Shown here: piece after piece, positions 8,639 through 63,981 of the stretch
How the letters are laid out: every line of letters begins with the position of its first letter
Position numbering within the stretch: position 1 is the stretch's first letter
Assembly: GCA_001695595.3 (NCBI GenBank)
Contig: MBPM02000013.1
Location: 682,001 to 746,000 of the forward strand
Direction of reading: 5' to 3'
From: Plasmopara viticola
Lineage: Eukaryota; Oomycota; Peronosporomycetes; Peronosporales; Peronosporaceae
Length of the DNA stretch: 64,000 bases
Notes under the pieces: generated by a model
Database searches by the model: none
Seen by the model: only the letters and a program-made list of their open reading frames with translations
Told to the model about the DNA's origin: nothing
Program-made: the position numbers and the translations under genes

Positions 8639-8897
8639 AAGAGATTCAAGCTACCGGAACCCACGCGCTAGGACTAAGCTGTCTTTATCGCTGAATGCTG
8701 GTAGCAATCCGACCCATATTGGGACCGGGTTCCGTACCCCTCATTACACTATGAGGCTTTTCGGTCAGTGGGGCGTCCCCCACCCAACATTTTTATTATC
8801 CAATCGGGCGCGAGTTGGTAGGGCAGTCACACACTCGGGTGTGATGGCTCGTCTACTTTAGTGACCTATCTCCGGCTTCCTTAATTCGAATCCTATG

Positions 8898-8908
8898 GGT
8901 ATCGAACC
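8898..8908 (-). promoter_or_regulatory. Pol III box B of the SINE
   Basis: The minus strand reads GGTTCGATACC, matching GGTTCGANNCC. Its distance from the A box is normal for a tRNA-type internal promoter. Confidence 0.7.
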
Positions 8909-8940
8909 AGGTACATCCCGGTCCTGGGTCGATCGGCTAA

Positions 8941-8952
8941 CCGCTCGAGCTA
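8941..8952 (-). promoter_or_regulatory. Pol III box A of the SINE
   Basis: The minus strand reads TAGCTCGAGCGG, close to the tRNA A-box consensus (TRGCNNAGYNGG). It lies just inside the 5' end of the SINE. Confidence 0.6.
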
Positions 8953-8962
8953 CAGGGTCGGT

Positions 8963-8974
8963 ACACCGACGTCT
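8963..8974 (+). repeat. SINE target-site duplication, right copy
   Basis: Exact copy of 8627-8638, adjoining the tRNA-like 5' head of the minus-strand SINE. Confidence 0.75.
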
Positions 8975-24150: not shown

Positions 24151-24601
24151 TCATACGAAATCTTCATCCATTTGAAATGCAACGAGATTGTATTGTATTA
24201 CGTTATCGCGTTGCCAAGTTATGCACGTGCTAGGCTCAGTCTGGCTAGTCCACGGCATAGAGTGGTGTCCGCATACGTCGGGTCTTGTTCGGCGGGTAGT
24301 ACAGCCAGCACCGAGGTCGTGAGGGTCTTCCATTATTTTGTTTAGCTCTGACTTGGTAAGAGCCCAGGTGGCGCCCTGGTGCTGGAGACCGTCGCGTCGA
24401 GGGTGAGACTCGTTGGAGACCTGCAGATGCCCGAGAGCACCTGATCGAAGCGCGCGAGCATTTAGCCCCCGCGCTTGGAAGGAGGGCGTCATCCCAACCT
24501 TTTCCAAGATGTGCAGCGAGATATTCCCAATTAACACTGTCGCTATCATCAAGCGAAATCAAACTTTTTCGATTGTATATTCGGTCAAATATAAGTAGCA
24601 A
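24151..24601 (-). pseudogene. Frameshifted retroelement-like coding relic
   Basis: Two overlapping minus-strand frames, 24601-24245 and 24552-24151, appear to be one protein split by a shift. The first reads HLGKGWDDALLPS through an Arg/Ser/Pro-rich stretch to GRHLGSYQ. The second continues KSELNKIMEDPHDLGAG to QRDNVIQYNLVAFQMDEDFV. The composition resembles gag-like proteins of oomycete transposons, but I cannot name the family. No terminal repeats were seen. Confidence 0.4.
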
Positions 24602-37500: not shown

Positions 37501-40500
37501 ACCAGTGAAAGCAGGCTAAAATCTGGGCACTGACCCGAGAAATTTACATCATCAAGGTGTCTCATACCTTCGAAAACATAACTAATTGGCTAAAAGTAAA
37601 ATATCATTCGCTGCTTTGGCAGCGGCAAGCAAGGCTACAAGCTAAGAAAAGCCAAGAAGGGTTTAGTCGAATTTAACCCTCGCTCTGTTTAAGATATGTG
37701 AAGGTCACTGGAAAATGCCACGCCATCAATGTTAGAGAAACACAAGTTGCCAATATCTTTTCCGAAAAAGATTTCAGTCTTCATTTTTTGATACACACCA
37801 TGCAAACTAACGCCCAGAAAGTCTGACATTTTGTGGTTTTAAATTCGTGTATGAAATACGAGAAATCGGTCGCTAGCGATTGTCGATTGTGTAAGCAAGG
37901 ACGCAAGGATTGAGAAGCCGTGTTTGATCTTTGTCGATTTTGATGCGTTGAGGAACTTTGCAAGTCGGTTCACGATTGCGTTCAATAAGTATACAATAGT
38001 GAAACAATTTACATGTAACAGCAAAAAAAAATTTCACTTGACAGTCTAAAAGAGCAATCTTGGGCCTTAAAGAGATGAAATTGACCTGGCTATAAGACTC
38101 TAAATCCCGATTGCACGAACGCAGTTCTTTGTTAAATTCGGAAGATCCCAACAATCACTCAACAGATGATCTGGCATGCCTTATTTCACGTGCTAATGCC
38201 TTGATGAGCCACGCTTCCGTCTCTGTTGACTGTAAAACTTATTTGGAGGTGGACAGAGCAAGCATACGCCCTACGGATATCAAAGCTACTGGTATCTTCA
38301 CGAAGAAAAATGTGACGACATCTTAAAGCGCTATCAGAGCAGATGTGCAAGCTTTGTTGGCAACACTGGTTCTCAAGAAAGGTAAAATTTTAACCGTGGG
38401 TATTATATTTTCACAGGTACGCCATCATAAAAGACCTTAAGCCAAAAAATACATATCTGCAAGACTTTTATGTTTGCATAGGGTTCCAAGCGAGCAGCAA
38501 AGTGTCACGTGGGCGGGTAAATTTGCTCTGCAACTTACACTCGCGCTCAAATTTGATGGAGGAATCGTTTTAAATGGTTCAATCATGATTCGACTAGCCG
38601 TCGTCACGTCAGACGCGCTCAAGTTGTAGGCATGTTAGAGCTATTGAACCTGAAAAATACGCGAACATTGCCCAATTTAGCGTTGGTAATGCCTTAATGG
38701 AGTATAGAATCTCTCTCCAAACTTAAGTTTAATTCTCCATATGCAACGGATCAGCGCGTACATTAAGTCTGCTACTAATGGCCCTCAAGATTTCCGAGAA
38801 TTAAGGGAACTTCATATTCGAGGGATGAACAGATGTGTATCAGACTGGTGTGCATTTGAGCGACCAGACAAGCTCTTAGAAAACGCATCTTTGGATTGAT
38901 TTGAGATCGCAAGCATGGACATGTCAGCTTTCGCCGAGTGTGCATGTGACCGAGCTTGATCAGTTAACTACTTAGATCATTTGGCTGCTACACCCACGAT
39001 TGAGGACGGTGATGGTCCGGCGTTCGTGAGGATCTGGCTATGATGGTGGAAACAAAAAGAAGCTCAGTCTGAAGTCGATGATATCAATGATTTGCAATCT
39101 GCTCGTTGAGCACGATTAAGTTTCATTCGACACGAGCCAAAATACTGATTATCTTATGATAAGGCTTCGTGCAAATTTTAGCTAATAAATTTGAAGTGAA
39201 AGAGAATTAGAGTACGCATATTTAAGACTATGCAGCTGAGAGTGATCAGCATTCGCATTGAGCCGGCCATCATTGAGAAGTAGAACAGATTTGCTGCAAA
39301 TTGCGAAAAGAGGCGGTGTATTCCTTGCACATTCGAACCAATGTAGATCCCGAATTAAGCCAGAAGACTTGTGAATTAATTATTTCGAAATATAAGACGT
39401 TTATTGGCTTGACATTCGTAATCGATGAAAGAAGAAAAGAAACATCAAGGCCATGGATTACTGAGAACTTCCTTGATGAAAATATGAAGTGTAGAACGGT
39501 CGGAGGAAGATGTAAGTGAATAATCGCTGCTTGAAAAAACATTAGCGCATGATAATAAGACTTTAAGCAATAATTAGCAAACATAGCAGGATAAAAAAAA
39601 ACTTCATAAATGTTTTGCCAAACAGGATTTATTCGGGATTTTTTTTGACTTTTTAAACTGGGAGAGAGAGTAAATTTCACAGTACCGCGACTAGATGACA
39701 TATCAATTAAATGAGATACAGTTGTGCGCCAAAATTGACTTGCAACGGGCCTTAAACTCCACCACAACAGCAAAGGCGCGCCAATCGATTCACTTCGCCG
39801 ATTGTCAGCAGTCAAGGCGATGAGTACGGCGAAAGATTGCCCGGCCCGTCACCCACTAGTGCTCCAGAGATTCCCCATGTTAACAACAATGCTGTCAAAT
39901 TAGCTCACCAAGGACTAATCAGACTTGACGTCAGACTCACGAGTCAAGTGAGAGGCCTTACTTAAACGAAGGTAAGTCCATGGCCTCAAAGGAAGGATAG
40001 CTTGAAGGACATTGTCACTACCACGGCTCGAATGAAATAAGTTATTCTAAGATTGAGTGAATCTCTAGGGTACTGCTACCCGAAATTAAACCACTTTTAC
40101 GTAGCGTACATTATGCTGGTCTAGTGGATTGGAGAATTATCGCGTTCGGGATATCGCTTCTTCGACACAATGCAAAATGAAGTTCCAGGATCGTAAGTCC
40201 CACGCGCGGGTCCTACTATACCCCAACGCGCGGCAAAAAAGACCGCGGCTTGTCTATGAAACATCCGTGCCTTATTATTTTTTTATCACAATTAGTCGCG
40301 CTGGGGCAAGTGTATTTCTACATATAAAATGGTGGCGTGCCCCAAGGATCTAAAAACGCTTTAAGAAAGCCAAGGTCTGAGTGCTGGACCTCATTCGAGA
40401 GCAACTCAAGCGTGCACACTCGGTGTCGCATAAGCTGCTTCATATCATGGAAGAGACACAAGATCGAGGAAAGTGCGTTCTCATACGGCGCTCATTGACC

Positions 40501-40919
40501 GCTAAGGTCAGCGGTATTTTCACGTGGAAATAAAGGTCCTTAAAGAGGAGATAAAGTCTTTTGGTTATGTGACTGATGAGCTTTACGCTCGGATCAGCCT
40601 CCTATTAACGCAGCGCTCGGCCTTTGATCTGCGTCAAAAGCGACAACTGCTCGGTGGAATTGCCTCCATCGACCGAGTATTTCCCATCTTCAGGTCCATT
40701 TTTCCTCGTCGAGCATATTTTTCGGAAAGCTAATGAACCTATCACGGAACGGCGACTATTGTAGGTGCCCGGCGATGTAAATCTTTGTTCATTGCGCTAA
40801 TGAATTGGTCACATAGCCCACACAAATACCAGCCTAATGTTGTCGTCTTTGATCACACTCAAAACCTTATTGGTCCCCAATATTAGCGCCCTCCATTCAA
40901 AGTCGAGAACGTTGCGGTC
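31554..40919. other. Long gene-poor stretch
   Basis: About 9.4 kb without a supportable gene. Frames of 60-180 codons are scattered on both strands (33476-33748 minus, 34453-34887 plus, 39270-39815 minus), but none shows a domain, a signal peptide with a following frame, or a credible splice partner. From about 36.2 to 39.1 kb the plus strand has protein-like segments interrupted every few dozen codons, consistent with decayed genes or transposons. Confidence 0.4.
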
Positions 40920-41556
40920 TTCAAAGGCGTTTGCCATGATCATGCGTCAGATGACAATTCTATTTGCAGGTGGTGAGGCTAATTTGACCGAACCCAAACC
41001 TTTTTTGCGAAGAGCTGGGCGATTAATATTTGAAAAACCCACGGCGGTCCTCGTCATTTCTCTCGACGAAGGCAGGAGTGTTGGACCACCGGGCGACGAA
41101 GAAGAATAGGCGCGTGTTTTCTGCCGCGATGGAAAATGAAGGTTTTTTTCAGAGCCTGTCTTGTCTAAACAGAATTCTAGTGAGCAAACTACTTTCGACA
41201 TGCCGCCCACGATGCAGGTTCAGCCATTGTTGCAGCAGCCTTTGTTTCGGCGGGGCCTAATGCTCATAGATCGTAGGTGCTGTTGGGGAACAAAGCAACC
41301 TTCCTAGAAAATGACTGGATAATTTTTGAATGACCAGGTAGACAAAATGCCTTCTTTCCGCTTAGACATCATTGTAAACAATTCGTATGAAAGGCAAAGA
41401 GTGGTGGATAGAGCTCGTCCCTTTCCCACTAGATGTTGTCCAAGTCTTTCTGATGGAGGAAAACCTAGCTTTCTGTTGAAAGTAGCTCCTCGTGCAACCG
41501 ATTTACAGACGGAGGTTTTTCAAAGAGAAACCAAACTGGATGTTGGCCCCTTTTGA
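40837..41556 (+). pseudogene. Unidentified coding relic downstream of the PEPCK pseudogene
   Basis: Plus-strand segments (FAGGEANLTEPKPFLRRAGR, VLVISLDEGRSV, QVQPLLQQPLFRRGL) are shared with the minus strand of 63641-63981 in the other arm, where they read QVQPLLQQPLFRRSL. Both copies are broken by stops and shifts. An ancestral gene converging on PEPCK is likely, but no family was recognised. Confidence 0.45.
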
Positions 41557-41913
41557 GTCGCAAGTTTCGAGGTGCTTACAAGGAATTACTGATAGGTCCA
41601 AACATTAATACTGTATTACACGTATCAGACAAGGAACCGCAGATGTCGATCTAGAGACCAGGAGGACATTTTCTCTATCAAGCTTTTAAAACCTCCAATC
41701 CTACTTCTAGTCGCTTTTAATCGGAAGTGTAAGTTTAACGGTCGAAGTTATCGCTGCATCGTCGTTCCGCGTTGTCACGCCTGACATTGAGTCTTGATAT
41801 TATGTAAACGGTCGATACAAGTTGCAATTGTTCAATTATATTAACATATAACATCGCTCCACAGAAAATAAGAGTTTTCTAATCATTCTTTCATATTAAA
41901 ATCATGCATGCCA

Positions 41914-43522
41914 CTAACACATCACCGGGCCGTAACATGATAGGTCTTTCTTGCCTGGCAGAATAATCTGCCTGTAGTTTTTTATAAAAGAGGTGGCCAA
42001 TTTGTGAGCAGTATTGCGGAATGCACCCTTGTCCGTCCACGCGTCTCTTGGATTTAACATCTCAGATGGCACGCCTTCCACGAATGTGAGAATCTCAAAG
42101 CCAAACAGAGGATCTTCAACAAATAGTGCCCTTTCGATATCGCCGCCAAGCACTGCATCTACACACTTACGCGTGTACTGCAGCTCTATGCGTTCCCCCA
42201 CCCCATACACGCCACCAGTCCGACACGTGTTAATCATATACACATTCGTATTGCGTCCCTCTAGCTTTCAATCGAAAAAAGTTGCATACTTCATCGGGTG
42301 CAGCATCATAAACGCAGCTCCAAAGCCCGTCGAGAACGTCGCTTGGTGCTCCGTAATGCCGCGTTCCGTACCCGCCACCTTGGCCGAGTAACCCGACAAG
42401 AAATGGTACCGCGCCTGACCTCTTGACAACTTTGCTACAGGAGGAAGCACGCCGTACGCATCGCACGTGAGAAAAATGATGACAGTTTGACTAAATGTCA
42501 CGAGGTTGAGGTTGATGGCGGGGAAGGTGGGAAATTGGATACGATACGCGACCATGTTCCGTCTTGCTTGAGTTGAAATAGTCGGGTTCATTATTAGCGT
42601 CGATCCACACATTTTCAAGCAAAGCATCCGGGCGAATCGCATTATAGATACAGGGATTCTTCTCTTTACTCAAATTAATCGTCCTGACATAGCAGCCGCC
42701 TTCAAGACTAAACACAAATTCGGAATCCCAGCCGAGCTCGTCGTCACCAATGAGCTCGCGCTTTGAATCAGTCGACAGCGTCGTCTTGCCCGTGCCAGAG
42801 AGCCCAAAAAAGAGAGCAGTGTGTCCTTACCCGCCAAAGTTGGATGAAGTCTGCACAGTCAACACATTGTTCAGAGGCAAATAGTAATTCATTATACTAA
42901 AGATCGCTTTCTTCATTTCGCCACTGTAAAATGTGCCGCCAATAATGCCCAAGTGTTTTTCTATATACAAAAGCTCAAATACTTCCGAATGAAGTCCGTG
43001 TTCCTTCCAATCTTCATCGACAATGTTGCACGCATTGATAATTGTAAAGTCGGCCTCGAAATTCATAGCCACACGAGCAAAGTCGGGGCGGATAAACATG
43101 TTCGTGACAAAGTGGTGTTGCCACGCCAGCTCGGTAATAATGCGCACGTTCAAGCGAGACTCCTCGTTCACACCACAATGCCCATCAAACACGTACATGC
43201 GGCCTACAGTGCTAAAGTGCTGCGAGGCCTTGCAGTACAGCGCGTCGAATACTTCAGGTGAGGTAGGCTGATTGATTGAGCCCCACCACACGAAATCTTG
43301 GGATGGTGCCTGCTTGACAATGATCTTGTCCTTGGGCGAGAGACCCGTAAAGTTGCCAGTGTCCACGGCAAATGTACCATTGGCCACAAATGTGCCTTCT
43401 TGGTACTTCTTCTCGTGCTCCGCGAGCTCTTTGTAGGTCAAATTGTGAAATACTTTGCAGCTGTTGAGGATACCAAGCTTGGTTAAGCCTAGAGCGGCAG
43501 TTGTGGTCTCGTGTTCCACCAT
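41914..43522 (-). pseudogene. PEP carboxykinase (ATP) pseudogene
   Basis: This reads from MVEHETTT at 43522 to a TAG at 41914 and is closely related to the copy at 61216. Frameshifts occur near 42830 (after SSNFGG, just before the P-loop) and near 42490 (after HQPQPRD), so no full-length protein can be made. It keeps several active-site elements that the other copy has lost: YSGEMKK, the P-loop [11 protein letters not shown] and HGRVSYP. It has lost the substrate-binding Arg of TGRSPKD, which here reads TGLSPKD. Its C terminus ends CYGPVMC, close to the normal end of the family. Confidence 0.9.
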
Positions 43523-43937
43523 TATGTTGGTGGAAAAAAGGCGACGTGGATCGTTAAGGACAAAAGTGACAGTGAATGCTTAATGATTCCAAGTTGGTAA
43601 AGATGACGCACTCTTGTTGACACGCCACTGCAAGTTGAACAAAAAAATCTTGTTAAGCGGAACATCTCCTGAGATATAATTGGTTCCGATAGTAGCCGTC
43701 CAACTCAATCCAACTTGTCCAAATCACTCATTCCGAAAATTCTTTTATTCTCAAGCCAGTATGCTTCGGTCAGTGAATGTAAGTGATACTTGAAAGGCAA
43801 CGTCGCGGTTGTAGATCACCTAGCGTACTAGCTTTTAGTATAGCCAGCCTTTTTGCGAGTAACACGACTGGGCGGTGATGGACAGCGTAAATCGCATGCA
43901 CAACGTATGCGACAGGGAGCGACTCGTCGCATGCATA
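43523..43937 (-). promoter_or_regulatory. 5' flank of the PEPCK pseudogene
   Basis: This aligns with 60612-61215 upstream of the other copy, including a long match from GGAATGAGTGATTTGGACAA to the ATG. It lacks an insertion of about 190 nt found in the other copy. Confidence 0.6.
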
Positions 43938-44105
43938 CACAGAAACACAACTGACAACGCGCATTGTTACTGTGATAGTCTGGGTCCCCGAAGTGGAGGT
44001 TGCTTACGAGTAACAAGATAAGATAGACTATAAAAAGCAATGTGTCCGTGTTCACAAAGAGTTTAAAACATTTTGTAGCCACATACAATATTTACAGAAG
44101 GGTTG

Positions 44106-44354
44106 TTAAAGCTTATGTTGCAGCGCTTTGGCGCTCCCGTGGGCGGTTGATCTGGCAGTGCCTTTACGCTCAGCAGTTGCTCTCGAGGCATCAACAAATG
44201 ATCGAGCTGATGTGGCATCTTTTTGAAGCGAAGGCAGCATGCTATCGTTATGAATCCAATATTAAACACTCTAAGTGCAGTAATTGCGCTTACCAATTGA
44301 TGATTTGCCATTTGTCTTTAAACACAATCGAAGCCGAGACAATGTAACAAACAT
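44106..44354 (-). CDS. Candidate small spliced protein, 57 residues
   Basis: Exons 44354-44294 and 44218-44106 join across a 75-nt GTAAGC...AAG intron in phase 1. An alternative acceptor at 44207 also keeps the frame and gives a slightly shorter product. The N terminus (MFVTLSRLRLCLK) is hydrophobic and basic without acids, as in mitochondrial presequences. The C terminus is Ala/Arg-rich (RATAERKGTARSTAHGSAK). It starts only 40 nt after the stop of the upstream same-strand gene, which is tight. It could be a chance frame; no family was recognised. Confidence 0.35.
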
Positions 44355-44394
44355 TGAGACGCAAACGACGCGTATATAATTCAATGACGGTGAA

Positions 44395-45165
44395 CTAAGA
44401 AGTCCAAAAACGCTTTAAACCCTTATTCAAGGCCGCTTCTAGCTCTTGAAACGCCTGTTTCTGCAAATGCTGGGTGTTGCGCAGCCGCTGAATCAGATCC
44501 AATTCCTGGCGTTCCATCTCCTGTACCTTTGTCTTGTGTCGCTGAGCTTGATCTTCTTCGACACGGACCTTTTCCATCACTCTAATCCGATTATGCTTGT
44601 CAAGATCTCGCATGTGATTAATCTTCTTAACGCGCAAGGCTTCTTTCTGCCTTGCTATCTCTTCTTTTCGGCAAAGCACTTTCTTCATATCGCCTAGCTT
44701 CTGTCGATCTATGCTCTTTTTCCAACGCTGTTTGTCTTCTTTTAGCTTGCGTGCTTCTTTTTTATTAGCCTCGATAAGTTGCTTGCTGATCTCTCGTTTT
44801 CTTGAAGGGCTGACGATACTGCACACAAACTCACGTTTGGCCTCGATAGCAGCTCGAGTCTGCTGCTCCATCTCCTTCGTCAGCTCTTTAAACATCGTGT
44901 GCTCTCGATCATTGTCTTGTCGAACTTTTATCAGCTCTGCAGCTCGACGACGAGTTTGCTTTATGATCTTCCAAGCCTTTTCTTCCTCAGCTTTGAGCAG
45001 TGCAATACGATTTTTTAGCAGTAAAGCATCTCTTGACGCGTCTTGTCGTCTCTATTGGCATTAATCGACTTAGCAATCACAACGTATGCAATTTTCATTC
45101 TTTCTCCGCACCTGCTTGGCTTCAAGAAGTCGACTTTTCGGGAATTCCATCGTAATGTCTGTCAT
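44395..45165 (-). CDS. Highly charged coiled-coil protein, 236 residues
   Basis: Two exons, 45165-45112 and 45051-44395, join across a 60-nt GTGCGG...TAG intron in phase 0. An in-frame ATG at 45264 would add 33 residues; I prefer 45165 (MTDITMEFPKSR). Nearly the whole protein is Lys/Arg/Glu/Gln-rich helix (KAEEEKAWKIIKQ, KELTKEMEQQTRAAIEAKR), ending GLKRFWTS. It looks like a structural coiled coil, possibly of the cytoskeleton or flagellum, but no family signature is visible. It lies 204 nt downstream of another coiled-coil gene on the same strand. Confidence 0.7.
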
Positions 45166-45369
45166 ACTGTCGGTTGGCGTAATGTCGATAATAATGCAAA
45201 CAGCAAGGGTTCTGATGTATTCTGAGATTGAATAAGAAGTCAGTCGAAACTTTTTTAAAAGCATTGCATCGTATCAAATACGTGACGTTTTATCTGAAAA
45301 CCGTTTTGACAGCGTGCTCAAGTTACACCTTTGCATATCAACATTGCATTCACTATTGCCGACGGTACA

Positions 45370-48300
45370 CTAACTTGAGACCGTAAACGAGTCGTCTCCC
45401 ATGCCACCGTCTACGCTACTGGCGTCAATACTGGCCGCATACTTGCTAGCGAGCTCGAGGTCAGCTTTAAGCTGCTCCATTCCCGAGGACAGCAATTCCC
45501 AGAGATCAGGCGTCTGGCCTTTTCCGGCGGCAGTCACCTCGTCGTCGTCCGGAAGATCGGTATACTGCGACAGCTGCTGCGTGAGACGATGCGCACGGGC
45601 CGACAAGACATTATTTTCGGCTAGCAGCTCCGCAAGCTTCACACGTAGCTCGTCGTGTGCATTGGTTTCCTCGAAGCGAGTCTGAGCAAGCTGCTCTAGC
45701 TCATCCCGCAACAAATTATTTTCATTAGCAATGCGATCAATCTCCTCACGCGCTTCCTGTTCCACGTGACGGGCGAGCTCTTGTGCTCGGCTGACCTTGT
45801 TTTCACTTTCGCGAGACACATCCTCGCAGTACGCCTTAGATTTTTGCAGCAAATCTTCAAGCTCACGGTTCGTTTCCTCTAGTCGCTTGTTTACACGTTT
45901 GTGCTCGTCCAAGCTTTGAAGCAGATGCGCTTTTTCATCATTCAATTCGCGCAATTGGCCAAGTTTTGCTTCAAGCGAATACTTGTCTTGTTGAACCGCA
46001 CTTAATTGTGCACGGATCTGCTCCAACTCATTCTGAGTACGGTCCAATGTCGACATGTATTCAGTGTGAGTCTGGCGAAGATGCTCGCACTCTCGACTGA
46101 GCTGTATCACCTGCTGGTCCGAAGCTTGTTTATCAGCCTTGTAGCGATTAGCTAGATCTTCTAGCTGGGCCACATCGGATTGGTTGCGTTGCGTTGCCGC
46201 CGTGAGTTCGGCATTCTTACTTTGTAGACTATGGGTAGTATCCGCCAATTGATGCTGAACTTTGGCATGTGCCACCTTGAGCTGCTCAAGCTGACTATGT
46301 GCCACCTGCTGCTGCCTCTCAGCTTCATCACGCATGTTTTGCATCTCGGACACCAACAAAAGATTTTTTTTTGTAAGAGTCTCGACCTGCTTTTGTATCT
46401 CACGTTGGTGCGCGTGCATTGCACTTAGCTGCTGCTCTGCTTGCGTGGCCTTTGTTCGCGATTGTTCCAATGAGCGCGAAAGATCATCGTTTGCACGTTG
46501 CAACTCGCTCGACAAGGCCTGAGTGGAAGTTAACTTCTGTTCGAAAGATATTTGAAGTCGCTTCTGCTCGTGTTCAGCAGCGACGCGCTCTGAAAGAGCA
46601 GTTTGCAACTCTGCAGCAATTGCATCCTTAGCATGTTCTGCCTCTTGCAACTGCTGCTTTAAAGTCTGCTCCTGGCGCTGAAAGTGGCAAATCTTTTGTT
46701 CCAAATGTGTCACTTCACTCTGGACACGATCCAGCTCAGCGCGAGAAATGGTCGATTGCTTGGCCTCAGCGATAGATTGTTGCAAAGTTGCACATTGTTC
46801 TCGCTCACTTTGCAGCTGGACTTTTACATTTGCTAACTCCTCCATCGCAGTTTCCAGACTAGATTGAAGTTCGTATGAATTCTCCAAATTTTCTTGAGCC
46901 ATCTCTTGCAAGTTTTGAAGCTGCTGCTCTAAAGACTTCTTTTCATTCATCTGGTCGCTCACAATACCTTCAAGATTTTGCATTTTCAGTTGCAGCTCTT
47001 GGACGAATTCCTGCGACTGTGTTAATTGTGTCACAACTGCATCCTTTTCCGACCGAGCCTGGTTCAGCTCTTTTTCAACTATACTTAACTGCTCATCGCT
47101 TTTCAAGGCAGCATCCGAGACGTCTCTTAACACGGCGAGCTCCTGCTGCAAGGTTGCGTTAACGGCTTGACATTCATTCAGGTCGGTCTGTGTCTTCATC
47201 AACTCGTCACGCACTTGCTGAAAGCGTTCGGCCTCACTAATCAGCGCCAAGTTTTCTGAGCGAAGCTCTGCAATCTCTGACTCATTAACGTACAGTGCTT
47301 GGTCTTTGTCGATCGCGTTTGCCTGGAAAGCACGAAGCGATTCAATCTCTTGCCTTAAAGAATTTAGCATAGCATCGTCATTTCGCTGAACCTTAGTTAG
47401 CTCATTATGGACTGCGTGAAGACGGTCAAACTCAGTCGAGAGAGCGCTATAATTGTGTTCTAGATTCGACACATGCTCCGCCTTTTCGTTAGCAACATGA
47501 TGCGCCTCTCGAAGCTCTTGCTCCAACTTGGTAATGTGCTTTTCCGGCGACAGCTTTGTGACGCTTGCCTCTTCCTGTTCCTCATCTCCTTCCGACTGCA
47601 CTGAGGAAAGCATTTGATACTGCTCCTCTAGCCAAGCGTTTCGATTGTTCAAGTGCAAATTTAATTCCATCGCCTCGGTCAGCTCGCGTTGAGCAGTAGC
47701 AATTTGCTCCGTAAGAACGCTAATGACACCACCATCACCTTCTTCTACCTTAAACTTGTCATCGTCTTTGCCCGAAACTTCATTATTAATCGTAAAATGG
47801 CTATCAGCTTCCTTCTGCAAATTCGCGAATTGCTGGCTCTTCCGAGTAAGCTGTTCCTGTTGTTCCTCAAGCCTTTTTTCAAGCTCATCAATTTTGTCTT
47901 CGAATGCAGTCTGATCTGGAAGCGCATTTGTACGTGATTCTGCCTGCTTCACCACTGTCTCCGCCGTCGATAGAGCAAGCTGCTGTTTCAACTCCTCGTT
48001 TATTTTCCACAACTCGATGCAATCGTGCTTGTAGTCACCCAGTTCCTGTACCTTTTCTTCGACAATTTTCTTTTGTTCCATGACACGCTTCTCCAATGCC
48101 TCCACTTCGTGCTGGCCTTCCAATTTCACTTGTTGCAATTTTTGTTCGTGTTCTTGGGCTATCTGTTCGAACTCATGTCGGAGCTGCTCAAGAGCTTTCG
48201 CATCCGTCATGCGTTGCGTCTGAGCTGCTTCTAATTCTTGCTTCACTTCCTCAGCTGAAGCTTTGGTCTCACGCAAAGCCAGCTCCGTTTCGGCGAAAGA

Positions 48301-49197: not shown

Positions 49198-49417
49198 GGC
49201 GTACGTCGTTAATGTGCAATGCGGAATGCGACCGAGTGGGAAAGACTGCAGAATAGACTAAGATATCCAGATCGATAGGGCCCGCGCGAATCCGTGTAGA
49301 CGTACCCGAATTAAGGTACACCTGCTTAGCGCCAACCAAACGTAGGCTGCGAGAAACACTTGTACTCGTTCATTAACCTACAAGTAGTTGCCTAGTCGCC
49401 TCGCTTTTGACGTTGGG
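49198..49417. promoter_or_regulatory. Shared divergent promoter region, coiled-coil gene and NOG1
   Basis: 220 nt separate the two ATGs on opposite strands, so the promoters overlap or are adjacent. No known motif was identified. Confidence 0.4.
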
Positions 49418-51412
49418 ATGGTGGTGTACAACTTTAAAAAGATCCAAACGGTGCCGACGGCCAATGACTTTATCGACATTGTGCTTACGCGCACACAGCG
49501 CAAGACGCCGACAGTGATCCATCCTACGTATGCCATTTCGCGCATCCGCGCGTTCTACATGCGCAAAGTGAAGTTTACACAGCAGACGTGCCAAGAGAAA
49601 CTTAGTCAAATCATCGATGACTTTCCGCGCCTTGACGACTTGCACCCGTTTTACGCGGATCTCATAAATATTCTGTACGACCGCGACCACTACAAGTTAG
49701 CGCTCGGCCAAGTGAACACAGCTCGTGCTCTGATTGACAATATTGCCAAGGACTATGTGCGGATGATTAAATATGGTGACTCTCTCTACCGATGCAAGCA
49801 GCTTAAACGAGCCGCGCTGGGTCGAATGTGTACACTACTTAAGAAGCAAAAGGCTTCGCTCGAGTACTTGGAAGAGGTGCGCAAGCACTTGTCGCGTCTG
49901 CCCTCGATTGACCCAAACACCCGCACGTTGCTAGTAACCGGGTTCCCTAACGTAGGGAAGTCGAGTTTCATGAACAAAGTTACGCGCGCAGATGTAGACG
50001 TTCAGCCGTATGCTTTCACGACCAAGGCGTTGTACGTCGGCCATCTGGACTACAAATATTTGCGGTGGCAAGTGATTGATACGCCAGGTATCCTCGATCA
50101 TTCTCTTGAGGATCGTAATACAATCGAAATGCAGGCCGTCACAGCACTTGCCCACTTACAAGCATCCGTTCTGTTTTTTATGGACATTTCTGAACAATGT
50201 GGCTTTACCATTGAGCAACAGCTAAGTCTGTTTGAAAATATTCGCCCGTTGTTTGCGAACAAGCCGCTAGTGCTTGTGTGCAACAAAATCGACCAGATGC
50301 GTTTCGAAGCACTGTCAGAGACCCACCAGAACATGATTAATACGGCAGTAGAGGAGACTAAGGCCAAGTTTTTCACCATGTCGAATCACTCGGAGGAGAA
50401 TGTCATGGAAGTCAGAAATTACGCTTGCGATGAACTTTTGACTCACCGTGTGAATTCAAAGATCAAGGGTAACAAAGTGGCCGATGTGCTCAATCGTCTT
50501 ACCGTCGCTATGCCTGTGGCTCGGGATGATGTAAAGCGTGAGATTACGATTCCAGCTAGTGTCATTGCTGCTCGCAATTCCTCAAACAGCGGAGTTCCAC
50601 GTGTTTTGCTTAAGGACAAGATGAATGCAAATGGTGGGGCTGGTGTCTACTCGTATGACTTCAAAGAGCATTACAAGGGTATGCTTGGCAACGACGATTG
50701 GACACAGGACGCAATCCCAGAGATTTGGAACGGCAAGAACGTTGCCGACTTTGTGGATCCTGAAATTCTCAAGCGTCTCGAGGCTTTGGAGCGGGAAGAA
50801 GACGAGGCAATGGAAAACAATGCGCCAATAGACGAAGATGAAGACATGAGCGACCTGGACGATGAACAGAAAGATAAATTGGCTCGCATTCGAGAGAAAA
50901 AAGCCGTTATTGTAGCGGAACACCGTCAAAATAAGAACAAGAACCACTCGTCTATCGCACGAAAGGTACGTGCGAAGCTTCGCACGCTCACACAAACAAA
51001 GAAGGAGCTGGAGGCTCTTGGCGTCGACACAAGTCACATGAAGCACGCCGAGGCTGTTGTAGCGAAGAGAAAAGCTGGCGAGGAAAGTCGTGGTCGGAAG
51101 CGCCAACGCGAGGACATGGATGTGGACATGGAAGATGCAACCGAGAGCTCTGATTTCCGTGTGCGCGCCCGTGCTAAGTCAGCGATGCGCTCAAAGTCAA
51201 AGAATCGCTCACAATCGTTGGTTACCCCGCGCGACCAGGCCGGGTTTGCCGACAAGGCCGCTATGGCTTCTGTCAAGCGTGCTACTCGACTTACGCAGCG
51301 CAAGGCTGCTAAGATGGGTCGTGCTGGTGAAGCCGACCGAGTATCGGTACCGAAATTGGCAAAGTGGCAGAACTCGGGCAAACGTGGCCAGGGCAATACG
51401 CATTCCCGTTAA
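49418..51412 (+). CDS. NOG1: Nucleolar GTP-binding protein 1 (60S ribosome biogenesis GTPase)
   Basis: A single open frame of 664 residues from ATG 49418 (MVVYNFKKIQTVP), close to the length of yeast and human NOG1. The N-terminal helical bundle is followed by the Obg-type GTPase domain: G1 GFPNVGKSS (175-183), the switch I region with PYAFTTK, G3 DTPG (221-224) and G4 NKID (289-292). The C-terminal half is charged. It contains the conserved basic end (RDQAGFADKAAM, RAGEADR, KLAKWQNSGKRGQG) expected of NOG1, whose C-terminal tail threads into the pre-60S exit tunnel. The role is in pre-60S assembly in the nucleolus and early cytoplasmic maturation. No intron is needed. Confidence 0.95.
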   Translation: MVVYNFKKIQTVPTANDFIDIVLTRTQRKTPTVIHPTYAISRIRAFYMRKVKFTQQTCQEKLSQIIDDFPRLDDLHPFYADLINILYDRDHYKLALGQVNTARALIDNIAKDYVRMIKYGDSLYRCKQLKRAALGRMCTLLKKQKASLEYLEEVRKHLSRLPSIDPNTRTLLVTGFPNVGKSSFMNKVTRADVDVQPYAFTTKALYVGHLDYKYLRWQVIDTPGILDHSLEDRNTIEMQAVTALAHLQASVLFFMDISEQCGFTIEQQLSLFENIRPLFANKPLVLVCNKIDQMRFEALSETHQNMINTAVEETKAKFFTMSNHSEENVMEVRNYACDELLTHRVNSKIKGNKVADVLNRLTVAMPVARDDVKREITIPASVIAARNSSNSGVPRVLLKDKMNANGGAGVYSYDFKEHYKGMLGNDDWTQDAIPEIWNGKNVADFVDPEILKRLEALEREEDEAMENNAPIDEDEDMSDLDDEQKDKLARIREKKAVIVAEHRQNKNKNHSSIARKVRAKLRTLTQTKKELEALGVDTSHMKHAEAVVAKRKAGEESRGRKRQREDMDVDMEDATESSDFRVRARAKSAMRSKSKNRSQSLVTPRDQAGFADKAAMASVKRATRLTQRKAAKMGRAGEADRVSVPKLAKWQNSGKRGQGNTHSR

Positions 51413-60437: not shown

Positions 60438-60748
60438 GCTGATAGGGTAGTCAGTGTTGCGTATTCGAATCACAAATATTGACCTATCACGCTATTAAGT
60501 TACCAATATGGATTGAACTATGCACTACGGGCGTAAGATACGTATCCGCAGTTTTGTGCTTTTCGTCGGTCATTACTAATTAAAGCTCCTTCAATAGCGC
60601 TGTCGGATGTACGCATGCGACGAGACGCTCCCTGTCACATGCGTTGGGCATGCGAATTGCGCTGTCCATTACCACCTAGTCGTGTAACTCGCAAAAAGGC
60701 TAGAAACACTAAAGGCTAATATGTAGGGTGAACTACAACCGCGACGTC

Positions 60749-60940
60749 TCAATTTTTTTTACTGTTTTCATTATAACACAGGCTACATACAATGTATGCA
60801 GATCGAAGCCCATTTCAATTAATCATAAATTTTTCTAACAGAGCTCAGGAGCGTCATACGTACATTGCAATATTTTGATATTGGGATTGACACAATAAAT
60901 GGACAATATTTCCTTGCAATACGTCGTATACTTCCACAGC
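60749..60940 (+). other. Insertion in the PEPCK upstream region
   Basis: The two arms match up to CTACAACCGCGACGT and again from CCTTTCAAGTATCACT. About 190 AT-rich nt between them occur only in this copy. No terminal inverted repeats or coding frame were seen. It could be a small mobile element or a deletion in the other copy. Confidence 0.6.
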
Positions 60941-61215
60941 CTTTCAAGTATCACTTACATTCACTGACCGAAGCATACTGGCTTGAGAAAAATAAAGAAG
61001 TTTCGGAATGAGTGATTTGGACAAGTTGGATTCAGTTCGACGGCAACTATCGGAACCAATTTTATCTCAGGAGATGTTCCGCTTTACAAGATTTTTTGTT
61101 CAACTTGCAGTGGTGTGTCAACAAGAGTGCGTCATCTTTACCTTCTTGGAATCGTTAAGCATTCACTGTCACTTTTGTCCTAAACGATCCACGTCGCCTT
61201 TTTTCCACCAACATA

Positions 61216-62904
61216 ATGGTGGAACACGAGACCACAACTGCCGCTCTGGGCTTAAGCAAGCTTGGTATCCACAACCACAACAGCTGCAAGGTATTTCACA
61301 ACTTGACCTACAAACAGCTCGCGGAGCACGAGAAGAAGTACCGAGAAGGCACATTTGTGGCTAATGGTACATTTGCCATGGACACTGGCAAGTTTACGGG
61401 TCGTTCGCCCAAGGACAAGTTCATTGTCAAGCAGGCACCATCCCAAGATTTCGTGTGGTGGGGCTCAATCAATCAGCCTACCTCACCTGAAGTATTCGAC
61501 GCGCTGTACTGTAAGGCCTCACAGCACTTTAGCGCTGTGAACCGCATGTACTTGTTTGATGGGCATTGTGGTGTTAATGTGGAGTCTCGCTTATATGTAC
61601 GCATTATTACCGAGCTAGCGTGGCAGCACCACTTTGTCACGAACATGTTTATCCGCCCCGACTTTGCTCGTGTAGCCAAGAATTTCGAGGCCGACTTTAC
61701 GCTTATCAATGCGTGCAACATTGTCGATGAAGATTGGAAGGAGCACGGACTTCATTCGGAAGTCTTTGTGCTTTTTAACATAGAAAAACACTTGGCCATC
61801 ATTGGCGGCACGTTTTACGGTGGCGAAATGAAGATGGCGATCTTTAGTATGATAAATTACTATTTGCCTCTGAATGGTGTGATGAATATCTATAAGCCTC
61901 TGAATGGTGTGATGACCATGCACGCATCAGCCAACATTGGCAAGGCAGGCGATACAGCTCTCTTTTTTGGGCCCTCTGACACGGGCAAGACGACGCTGTC
62001 GGCTGATCCAAAGCGCGAGCTCATCGGTGACGACGAACACGGCTGGGATGACGAGGGTGTTTTTAATTTTGAAGGCGGCTGCTATGTCAGGACGATTAAT
62101 TTGAGTAAAGAGAAGGAGCCCTATATCTTCAATGCCATTCGCCCGGATGCCTTGCTTGAAAATGTGTGGATCGACGCTAATAATGAGCCCGACTATTTCA
62201 ATTCAGGCAAGACGGAAAATGGTCTCGTATCGTTTCCAATTTACCACATTCCCCACCATCAACCTCGATCTCGTGGGAATCATCCAAATGTCGTCATATT
62301 TCTCACGTGCGATGCGTACGGCGTGTTTCCTCCCGTATCAAAGTTGTGTGCAGGTCAGGCGCAATACTATTTCTTGTCGGGCTACACGGCCAAGGTGGCG
62401 GATACGGAACGCGGCATTACGGAACCACAAGCGACGTTCTCGACGTGTTTTGGAGCTGCGTTTGTGACGCTGCACCCGATTAAGTATGCAACGTTTTTAG
62501 ATTGGAAGATTGAGGGACGCGATACGAATGTCTATATGATTAACACGGGCTGGACTGGTGGCGTGTATGGGGTGGGAAAACGCATAAAGCTGCAGTACAC
62601 GCGTAAGTGTGTAGATGCAGTGCTTGACGGCAGTGTCAACAAGGCAGCATTTGTTGAAGATCCTGTGTTTGGCTTTGAGATTCCCACATTCGTGGAAGGC
62701 GTGCCATCTGAGATGCTAAATCCAATAGACTCGTGGACGGACAAGGCTGCGTTTAGCGGTACTGCTTACAAGTTGACTACCTCGTTTAGAAGAAATTTCA
62801 GGCAGTTTATTTTGCCAGACAAGGACCTATCAGGGTATGGCCCGAGAAAAGCCAAGCGGGGGCTGTTTGGACAGAAAGAAAGAAGATCGCTTTATCTCTA
62901 TTAA
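61216..62904 (+). CDS. PEP carboxykinase (ATP-type), full-length frame but with catalytic-residue losses
   Basis: Open frame of 562 residues from MVEHETTT. The family converts oxaloacetate plus ATP to PEP plus CO2 in gluconeogenesis. R63 (TGRSPKD), K206, H236, K258, T259 and the DDEHGWDD metal site are kept. With E. coli PckA numbering, Lys213 (a metal ligand) is M207 (YGGEMKM), Arg333 is L337 (TENGLVSF instead of NGRVSY) and P-loop Gly251 is D255 (GPSDTGKTT instead of GLSGTGKTT). Residues 221-230 are an extra copy of ten codons. After YGP (543) the normal end is replaced by RKAKRGLFGQ and ten more residues encoded by inserted Copia DNA. The frame is intact but a normal enzyme is doubtful. 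A pseudogene copy lies inverted at 41914-43522. Confidence 0.9.
   Translation: MVEHETTTAALGLSKLGIHNHNSCKVFHNLTYKQLAEHEKKYREGTFVANGTFAMDTGKFTGRSPKDKFIVKQAPSQDFVWWGSINQPTSPEVFDALYCKASQHFSAVNRMYLFDGHCGVNVESRLYVRIITELAWQHHFVTNMFIRPDFARVAKNFEADFTLINACNIVDEDWKEHGLHSEVFVLFNIEKHLAIIGGTFYGGEMKMAIFSMINYYLPLNGVMNIYKPLNGVMTMHASANIGKAGDTALFFGPSDTGKTTLSADPKRELIGDDEHGWDDEGVFNFEGGCYVRTINLSKEKEPYIFNAIRPDALLENVWIDANNEPDYFNSGKTENGLVSFPIYHIPHHQPRSRGNHPNVVIFLTCDAYGVFPPVSKLCAGQAQYYFLSGYTAKVADTERGITEPQATFSTCFGAAFVTLHPIKYATFLDWKIEGRDTNVYMINTGWTGGVYGVGKRIKLQYTRKCVDAVLDGSVNKAAFVEDPVFGFEIPTFVEGVPSEMLNPIDSWTDKAAFSGTAYKLTTSFRRNFRQFILPDKDLSGYGPRKAKRGLFGQKERRSLYLY
61867..61915 (+). repeat. Duplicated 19-mer inside PEPCK (30-nt step)
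   Basis: CCTCTGAATGGTGTGATGA occurs at 61867-61885 and 61897-61915, so 30 nt (ten codons) were added in frame. The pseudogene copy has only one such segment, as do known PEPCKs. Confidence 0.9.
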
Positions 62905-63042
62905 GATTGCTCACAAAGTATTCAGGTTTCGTAAAGTTCGTCCACACGGACGTGATGGGATTGAATTGAGTCGTTCCGATGGGTGGTGCAAGATATGTGC
63001 TGACTCATGTGATAATTAATTTGCGTGTGGGTTGCCGTACGT
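62845..63042 (+). mobile_element. Fragment of Copia integrase region inserted at PEPCK 3' end
   Basis: The PEPCK arms diverge after GGCCCG at 62844 and rejoin near GTGTTAG at 63042. The extra sequence, in a frame different from PEPCK, reads FVKFVHTDVMG (from 62931) and GGARYVLTHV. These are typical of the Copia integrase N-terminal region, also seen (AHTDVMG) in the element at 27.3-31.6 kb. No LTR or target-site duplication is present, so it is a partial copy. Confidence 0.7.
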
Positions 63043-63640
63043 GTGTTAGTTCCATGCATACTTTTCATATGAAAGAATCGGTATGGAAACTACTATTTTC
63101 TGTCGAAGCGATGATATATTTTAATATTCATATTGAGAGAGAATTGCACATTTCCAACTCGGATCGACCATTTACGTATTAGCAAAACTCAATGTCGGGC
63201 GTGACAACGCGGTACTAGAGCTTGAATTGCTAAGCCACAGTCACCCTCCTTTAAAAGAAACGACGATGCAACGATAAGTTTAACCTGAAAGCCTACACTT
63301 CTGGTTAAAAGCGACAACGATTGTAGGATTTAAAGCTTGATAAAGAAAGTCTGGTAAATGTCTTTTCACTATGTATGCAAATCGGATAGGTTGCACGAGG
63401 AGCCACATAAGGCTCCTTTCAACGGAAAGCTAGCTTTTGACACAAAAGTTTAACGGTCTCCATCAGAAAGACTTGAGCAACATCTAATAGGAGAGAGACG
63501 AGCTCTATCCACCACTCTTTGCATTTCACACGAATTGTTTTCGATGATGCTAAAGCAGCAGAGAAGGCGGTTCGTTTACCGGGTTATTCAAAATGATCAA
63601 GCCATTTTCTAAAAGGCTGATTTGTTCCCCACAGCACCTT
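63043..63640. other. PEPCK 3' flank in the duplication arm
   Basis: This aligns with the reverse complement of about 41500-41910, with several indels. No coding frame of its own was seen. Confidence 0.5.
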
Positions 63641-63981
63641 CTATTGAAAATGACCTCTAATTATTAGGCTCCGCCGAAACAAAGGCTGCTGCAATAATGG
63701 CTGAACCTGCGTCGTGAACGACATGTCAAAAGTAGTTTGCTCACTAGAATTCTGTTTGAACAAGACAGGCTCTGGAAAAGCCTTAGTTTTTACCGCAGCA
63801 GAAAGCACGCGCCTATTCGACTTCGTCGCCCCGTGGTATAACACTCCTGTGTTCGTCGAGAGAAATGTAGAGGAATGCAACGGGTTCTTCGAAGATTAAT
63901 ATCCCAGCTCTTCGCTAAAAGAGCTTCAGGTTTGGTAAAAACAGCCTCATGGCCGGCAGAAAGAATTGTTATCTGACGCAT
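63641..63981 (-). pseudogene. Second copy of the unidentified coding relic
   Basis: Minus-strand segments (63880-63641 and 63981-63790) match the relic at 40837-41556. Shared elements are MRQ.TIL.AG, ISLDE.RSV (here in a second frame) and QVQPLLQQPLFRR. Stops and shifts break it. It is cut by the window edge. Confidence 0.45.

Follow-up and report, generated by a model that had tools for sequence, protein, structure and literature searches.

Outside metabolism, a phosphoenolpyruvate carboxykinase (PEPCK) has been noticed in the genus Plasmopara as a 57-kDa protein isolated from Plasmopara halstedii sporangia, an ethylene-inducing elicitor in sunflower, whose 1,589-bp ORF has 56% identity to a PEPCK of P. 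infestans (PMC2881003, partial text). Mutator-like elements (MULEs) have been described in Phytophthora, and Pack-MULEs in plants (PMC6446971, partial text). A literature search joining pseudoenzyme and phosphoenolpyruvate carboxykinase returned no PEPCK case, its sole match being titled on phosphoglycerate kinase, and no paper on PEPCK duplication in an oomycete was found among those listed, judging by titles and the starts of abstracts. The main text of Dussert et al. 2019 (PMC6660063, partial text) contains no mention of phosphoenolpyruvate, pseudogene or gluconeogenesis.

The cytosolic-type oomycete ATP PEPCK (P0002, Phytophthora capsici cluster) shares its length and domain with copy A, a PEPCK frame to which it is 83% identical and which lies in the window, the whole 64,000-nucleotide stretch of Plasmopara viticola DNA analyzed here. 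Unlike P0002 and a second P. viticola gene, copy B, copy A lacks Lys213, Gly251, Lys288 and Arg333 and carries a 10-aa insertion and a new tail. The features of copy A, in window coordinates, are as follows.

61216..62904, + strand: copy A, full-length PEPCK_ATP frame, 562 aa, catalytic residues lost
61270..61275, + strand: in-frame insertion of 6 bp (HN, residues 19-20), with counterparts in under 10 of 120 homologs (best of 7999)
61834..61836, + strand: codon 207, Met replacing E. coli Lys213
61867..61896, + strand: 30-bp in-frame tandem duplication, residues 218-227
61972..61980, + strand: P-loop codons 253-255, PSD replacing LSG (L249P, G251D)
62086..62091, + strand: codons 291-292, A287V and K288R, common to copy C (below) and fragments
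62224..62226, + strand: codon 337, Leu replacing E. coli Arg333
62401..62403, + strand: codon 396, Asp replacing Gly393 (Gly in 120 of 120 homologs, best of 7999)
62845..63035, + strand: 191-bp non-homologous stretch, original stop replaced, coding residues 544-562

The 562-codon open frame was confirmed at its exact coordinates (window 61216-62904, + strand), as the original prediction had it. Pfam PEPCK_ATP matches it at 1.3e-189 over profile positions 2-465 of 465, and with the domain over its full length copy A belongs, by descent, to the ATP-dependent PEPCK family. Alignment to E. coli PckA (1ayl), which supplies the residue numbering, pairs copy A residue 207 with Lys213 (which we take to be a metal ligand), 253-255 with 249-251, 292 with Lys288 and 337 with Arg333. 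At these places copy A reads M, PSD, R and L (K213M, L249P, G251D, K288R and R333L), and its P-loop reads GPSDTGKT instead of GLSGTGKT, with L249P and G251D in one P-loop. The earlier reading had thus numbered and called the losses at Lys213, Gly251 and Arg333 correctly.

Conservation was judged against an alignment of the best 120 of 7999 PEPCK homologs, so that the results speak of close relatives. Nine sites changed in copy A (K213, G214, L249, G251, A287, K288, R333, Y336 and G393) are each kept in all 120 (best of 7999); S250 and T252 are also kept in 120 of these best 120 of 7999, and G253, K254 and T255 in 119, with one gap. K213M, G251D, R333L and L249P occur in 0 of the 120 (best of 7999), which rules out that copy A's substitutions are ancestral or oomycete-typical. 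Related sequences with the same substitutions, which in an active enzyme would have spoken against the original prediction, are accordingly absent from this set (0 of 120, best of 7999). Copy A retains His232, Asp268, Asp269, Lys254, Thr255 and Arg65, so that by sequence it departs from a competent ATP PEPCK at Lys213, Lys288, Arg333 and the P-loop and agrees with one at the other ligands. At the 159 columns at least 99% invariant among the homologs (best 120 of 7999), copy A departs at 12, copy B at 1 (R396C), the full-length C8 isoform at 0, the long-dead copy C at 22 and each of five fragments carried by transposons at 24-27, while the homologs themselves (best 120 of 7999) depart at a median of 0 and a maximum of 5. 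The departures of copy A lie far beyond normal PEPCK divergence. Copy A might still be a working, merely divergent PEPCK, as most of its sequence is conserved (88% identical to copy B) and evolved under constraint, but with Lys213, Arg333, Lys288 and Gly251 all replaced, each kept in 120 of 120 homologs (best of 7999), this is extremely unlikely.

The damage extends beyond these residues and had been understated: the original prediction did not include the 30-bp duplication, the insertion of 6 bp or the exchanged 3' end. The duplication sits between Lys213 and His232, where fewer than 10 of 120 homologs (best of 7999) have corresponding residues. From 62845, copy A stops matching copy B, copy C and the fragments for 191 bp; this non-homologous sequence has removed the original stop and supplies residues 544-562 as a new tail. 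A dispersed repeat that occurs elsewhere in the genome at 12 places (71-81% identity) matches positions 62891-63018. The single repeat copy tested (L039, C159:20788-20890), which matches about 103 bp of the 3' stretch at 73%, is a Copia-type integrase (rve, 1.4e-16). The first 46 bases of the 191-bp stretch, which code most of the new tail, had no match in the genome repeat comparisons. An AlphaFold model of copy A (37 sequences) has a mean pLDDT of 81.7, with values below 50 at residues 222-224, 226-228, 392-402 and 552-562; the 10-residue duplication is a low-confidence loop, and an alignment-driven fold of this kind says little about stability.

Alternatively, the substitutions could be assembly or consensus errors, since three similar copies lie within 40 kb and polishing reads could map to the wrong one. 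However, the changes at K213, G251 and R333 are found in neither copy B, copy C nor the five aligned fragments, and could not come from mixing with those. Long-read sequencing errors are mostly indels, yet the frame of copy A is open. With the published P. viticola INRA-PV221 assembly built from PacBio data at 185x (PMC6660063, partial text) also speaking against error, we regard this explanation as very unlikely.

PEPCK copies were searched across the assembly (92.9 Mb, 358 contigs), and those that bear on copy A are listed here, in window coordinates unless a contig is named.

60607..63873, + strand: copy A segment, homologous to the copy B segment (C13:762304-763905)
C13:762304-763905, same orientation as copy A: copy B (L011), 533 aa, outside the window
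C8:1057922-1059520: C8 isoform (L012), 569 aa
41885..43522, - strand: copy C, long-dead PEPCK with stops and frameshift, inverted, sister of the transposon-borne fragments
39662..45891, - strand: copy C segment, about 6 kb, collinear with the copy B locus, flanks included

The search for a third intact PEPCK that had been proposed yielded, besides copy A, two other full-length open genes (copy B and the C8 isoform), which rules out copy A as the sole PEPCK. Copy B, intact-looking, lies 19 kb downstream of copy A, outside the window; the two are 88% identical, and none of the nine invariant sites is changed in copy B. The C8 isoform shows 90% identity to proteins P0030 and P0091, from Phytophthora infestans and Plasmopara halstedii, has the N-terminus LGLEKFGVTNAKT and is likewise unchanged at the nine sites. 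Since copy B and the C8 isoform are both full-length and open, loss of copy A need not affect metabolism. Copy B has Cys at Arg396 (Arg in 119 of 120 homologs, best of 7999) and Tyr at His340 (His in 117 of 120, best of 7999); with R396C and H340Y, it may be impaired too. Copy C contains 2 stop codons. Collinear sequence extends over about 6 kb between copies B and C, copies A and B have about 3.3 kb in common, and we read the three segments as probable segmental duplicates.

Between copies C and A lies a full-length NOG1 nucleolar GTPase frame (window 49388-51412, + strand). Two interspersed repeats of about 320 bp, at window 24187-24505 and 8641-8963, recur at 85-96% beside other PEPCK loci, the former type in L012-L014 and the latter in L011 and L018. 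Rfam at the gathering threshold gave 0 matches in window 39001-64000.

Apart from copies A, B, C and the C8 isoform, pieces of PEPCK occur at 31 places on eight contigs (C4, C14, C29, C36, C70, C124, C144 and C197), accounting for 86 of 91 protein matches. The pieces are 5'-truncated: 0 of the 86 matches start before query residue 91, and the six loci compared with the window (L013-L018) all start at window 43202, which corresponds to copy A codon 108, and lose homology at window 41882-41885, just past the stop, L018 being interrupted. On contigs C36, C124 and C144, most copies compared with L016 lie inside larger similar repeats of several kilobases. At L013 and L014, the fragment lies in a 2070-bp unit bounded by long terminal inverted repeats, the inverted ends starting GGGAGCGCC.

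C4:2216579-2218648: PEPCK-carrying element, 2070 bp, both ends read
C14:880936-883005: PEPCK-carrying element, 2070 bp, both ends read

The end pattern GGGAGCGCC (at most 1 mismatch) occurs 75 times in the genome versus 0 times for the reversed control, and a MULE end lies at most 500 bp from 25 of the 31 PEPCK-fragment places. L013 and L014 match a further element, L038, at both ends. Contig C54 carries in order, within 1.25 kb, the same TIR, the L038 ORF (at 89% and with one internal stop) and a match to the MULE domain PF10551, and on contig C71 a distant relative of the L038 ORF lies in a frame that has PF10551 (2e-24). Pfam detected no transposase in the short transposon ORFs, where the sole match, to a mating-type protein model, was below cut-off; the MULE assignment draws on the L038 ORF and its relative and on the PF10551 matches at C54 and C71. 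When the flanks of L013, L014, L037 and L038 were read by eye for a target-site duplication of ~9 bp, only about 6 of 8 flank bases matched. On this evidence, the PEPCK fragments are putatively cargo of a gene-fragment-bearing Mutator-like element, like plant Pack-MULEs. The dispersed fragments are the closest relatives of copy C and share with it changes such as His232 to Gln, so the captured copy was probably already dead.

The branching order of the copies separates older damage from changes private to copy A. In a nucleotide tree built on 976 columns from the 3' two thirds, with C8 as outgroup, copy B falls outside (A,(C, fragments)), each of the two nodes having 100% support. Site patterns agree in joining C with the fragments at 38 positions, against 9 that join A with the fragments and 5 that unite A and C to the exclusion of B and the fragments. 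Seven of the 9 patterns joining A with the fragments fall in copy A positions 301-600, and a separate tree of this region (274 columns) places C outside A and the fragments with weak support (61-78%), perhaps because gene conversion from B has displaced copy C there. G214A, A287V and K288R are common to copy A, copy C and the fragments and thus predate their split, whereas K213M, L249P, G251D, R333L, Y336F and G393D are copy A's own changes. The claim that the losses followed duplication therefore stands for K213, G251 and R333, which copy C and the fragments keep in the ancestral state, but not for G214A, A287V and K288R, already present in the A-C ancestor.

The dN/dS comparison along both copies, suggested at the outset, indicates that copy A was maintained as a protein for most of its history. 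A three-taxon codon model gives an omega for copy A of 0.285 (522 codons; 2dlnL 22.9 against 1). The estimate is 0.33-0.35 (2dlnL 10.9-13.2) when only codons after 200 are used or copy C is replaced by fragment L016 or L014, and 0.30-0.35 (2dlnL 10.5-14.9) in four-taxon fits with C8. Omega is 1.03-1.42 for copy C, 1.19 for L016 and 0.99-1.05 for L014, none different from 1. The contrast between 0.29-0.35 in copy A and about 1 in copy C and two fragments implies that selection preserved A as a protein during the decay of its sisters. Gene conversion among the copies could distort the branch estimates, though the subsets agree. With C8 as outgroup, the B branch did not separate from the A/C stem: C8 synonymous sites are saturated (t 8-10), and the omega of B, on a near-zero branch, is meaningless.

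Changes found in copy A only number 7 nonsynonymous to 8 synonymous at invariant columns, 3 to 4 at highly conserved columns and 16 to 10 at variable columns, with omega about 0.34 at invariant and 0.60 at variable columns; departures from neutrality are weak at these small counts (P 0.042, 0.086 and 0.19, respectively). Dropped from these strict counts are codons at which B matches neither C nor most of the fragments, as well as those at which A's codon recurs in C or the fragments; G251D is absent from them since B and C use different Gly codons, and the 2 stop codons of copy C are kept out of its N. Nonsynonymous hits on both invariant and variable columns are what constraint followed by release predicts. 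With the C8 branch (omega 0.06-0.08, saturated) as the background constraint on PEPCK, the neutral share of the copy A branch comes to about 25%. In simulated neutral mutation, which scored stop codons only, the chance of no stop in copy A was 0.32 at a neutral share of 0.2 and 0.17 at 0.3, so the open frame is compatible with a recently dead gene and needs no present function. The same simulation, again for stop codons only, gave 0.002 if the whole branch was neutral, and this value and an omega of 0.29-0.35 rule out neutral decay along the entire branch. Two pseudogene hallmarks, a dN/dS of 1 over the whole branch and a stop codon or frameshift, are missing from copy A, which would be at most recently a pseudogene. 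Together, the codon-based results support selection on copy A as a protein for most of its history, with constraint probably lost late.

Copy A is thus, we think, likely to be a redundant duplicate of a cytosolic-type ATP PEPCK, long kept as a protein and disabled recently. Because copy B and the C8 isoform can cover the PEPCK reaction, purifying selection on copy A would, as we infer, have been absent for about the final quarter of its branch. Copy A would then have gained K213M, L249P, G251D, R333L, Y336F, G393D, the 10-residue insertion and the new 3' end, by chance all ahead of a first stop codon or frameshift. Judged from its sequence, it should be without PEPCK activity, and any transcript would be a decaying relic. 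Counting against recent death, both coding indels (6 and 30 bp) are multiples of three, an outcome that neutral decay would give about 1 time in 9.

Alternatively, copy A could be a pseudoenzyme, in which catalysis was lost (Lys213, Arg333 and P-loop Gly251) while selection in this obligate biotroph held the fold, perhaps because it pairs with copy B as a subunit, regulates copy B by binding a ligand or acts outside metabolism. The 562-codon open frame, an omega of about 0.3 and the two in-frame indels fit such a protein, but the time before inactivation explains the constraint equally well. His232, Asp269, Lys254, Thr255 and Arg65 are retained, yet L249P and G251D in the P-loop, a 10-residue insertion beside the active site and an unrelated tail are not fold-friendly changes. 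A pLDDT of 81.7 with the insertion confined to a loop would also suit a conserved fold, though a model from 36 homologs is weak folding evidence. Changed invariant sites are enriched at active-site residues in copy A (5 of 12, P 0.011) and not in copy C (4 of 22, P 0.33); the test used a working list of 21 presumed active-site residues, was made post hoc, after the changed residues had been seen, and is given little weight, and 7 of the 12 sites lie outside the list. The genus has a non-metabolic PEPCK activity on record, the P. halstedii elicitor (PMC2881003, partial text), while the losses of copy A are common to none of 120 homologs (best of 7999). On balance, a pseudoenzyme seems improbable. 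The two alternatives posed by the original prediction, very recent loss of function and a new non-catalytic role, were the correct ones; dN/dS (0.29-0.35 for copy A, about 1 for copy C and two fragments) backs long constraint followed by loss, and the open frame is weaker evidence for function than it had supposed.

Most likely, the event behind copy A is an ordinary one in evolution and only the stage is unusual: copy A would be a redundant PEPCK duplicate seen shortly after its death. It catches a housekeeping-enzyme duplicate between the loss of catalytic residues and the breakage of the frame, with controls in the same genome: a sister that looks intact, another that died earlier, and mobile copies scattered over the contigs. 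Homology-based annotation would label it a functional PEPCK. The locus also leads to a piece of a metabolic gene that a Mutator-like element has multiplied in Plasmopara viticola; no report of metabolic-gene-fragment capture in oomycetes was found in the literature searched, and an unlisted report is possible.

Among known systems, copy A resembles decaying duplicates of housekeeping genes in its sister copies, its constraint followed by release and its lost stop, but it differs from such duplicates generally in its open frame and in losing catalytic sites ahead of a stop codon or frameshift. With pseudoenzymes it shares a conserved fold sequence that lacks catalytic residues. The P. halstedii elicitor is, like copy A, a PEPCK of this genus, and its activity was noticed outside metabolism (PMC2881003, partial text). 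However, two primer motifs of the elicitor, LGLEKFRI and FRIDNAKT, look like the N-terminus of the C8 type (LGLEKFGVTNAKT) and not like that of copy A or B, and the primer target GLSGTGK is an intact P-loop, unlike that of copy A (PMC2881003, partial text), so the elicitor has no direct bearing on copy A. Both the plant Pack-MULEs (PMC6446971, partial text) and the hAT-captured histone H3 of Pseudocercospora (PMC6710886, partial text) are likewise cases of a TIR DNA transposon that has taken up part of a housekeeping gene and multiplied it, as with PEPCK of the copy C lineage here. In contrast to both, the host here is an oomycete, and the captured piece was probably already disabled.
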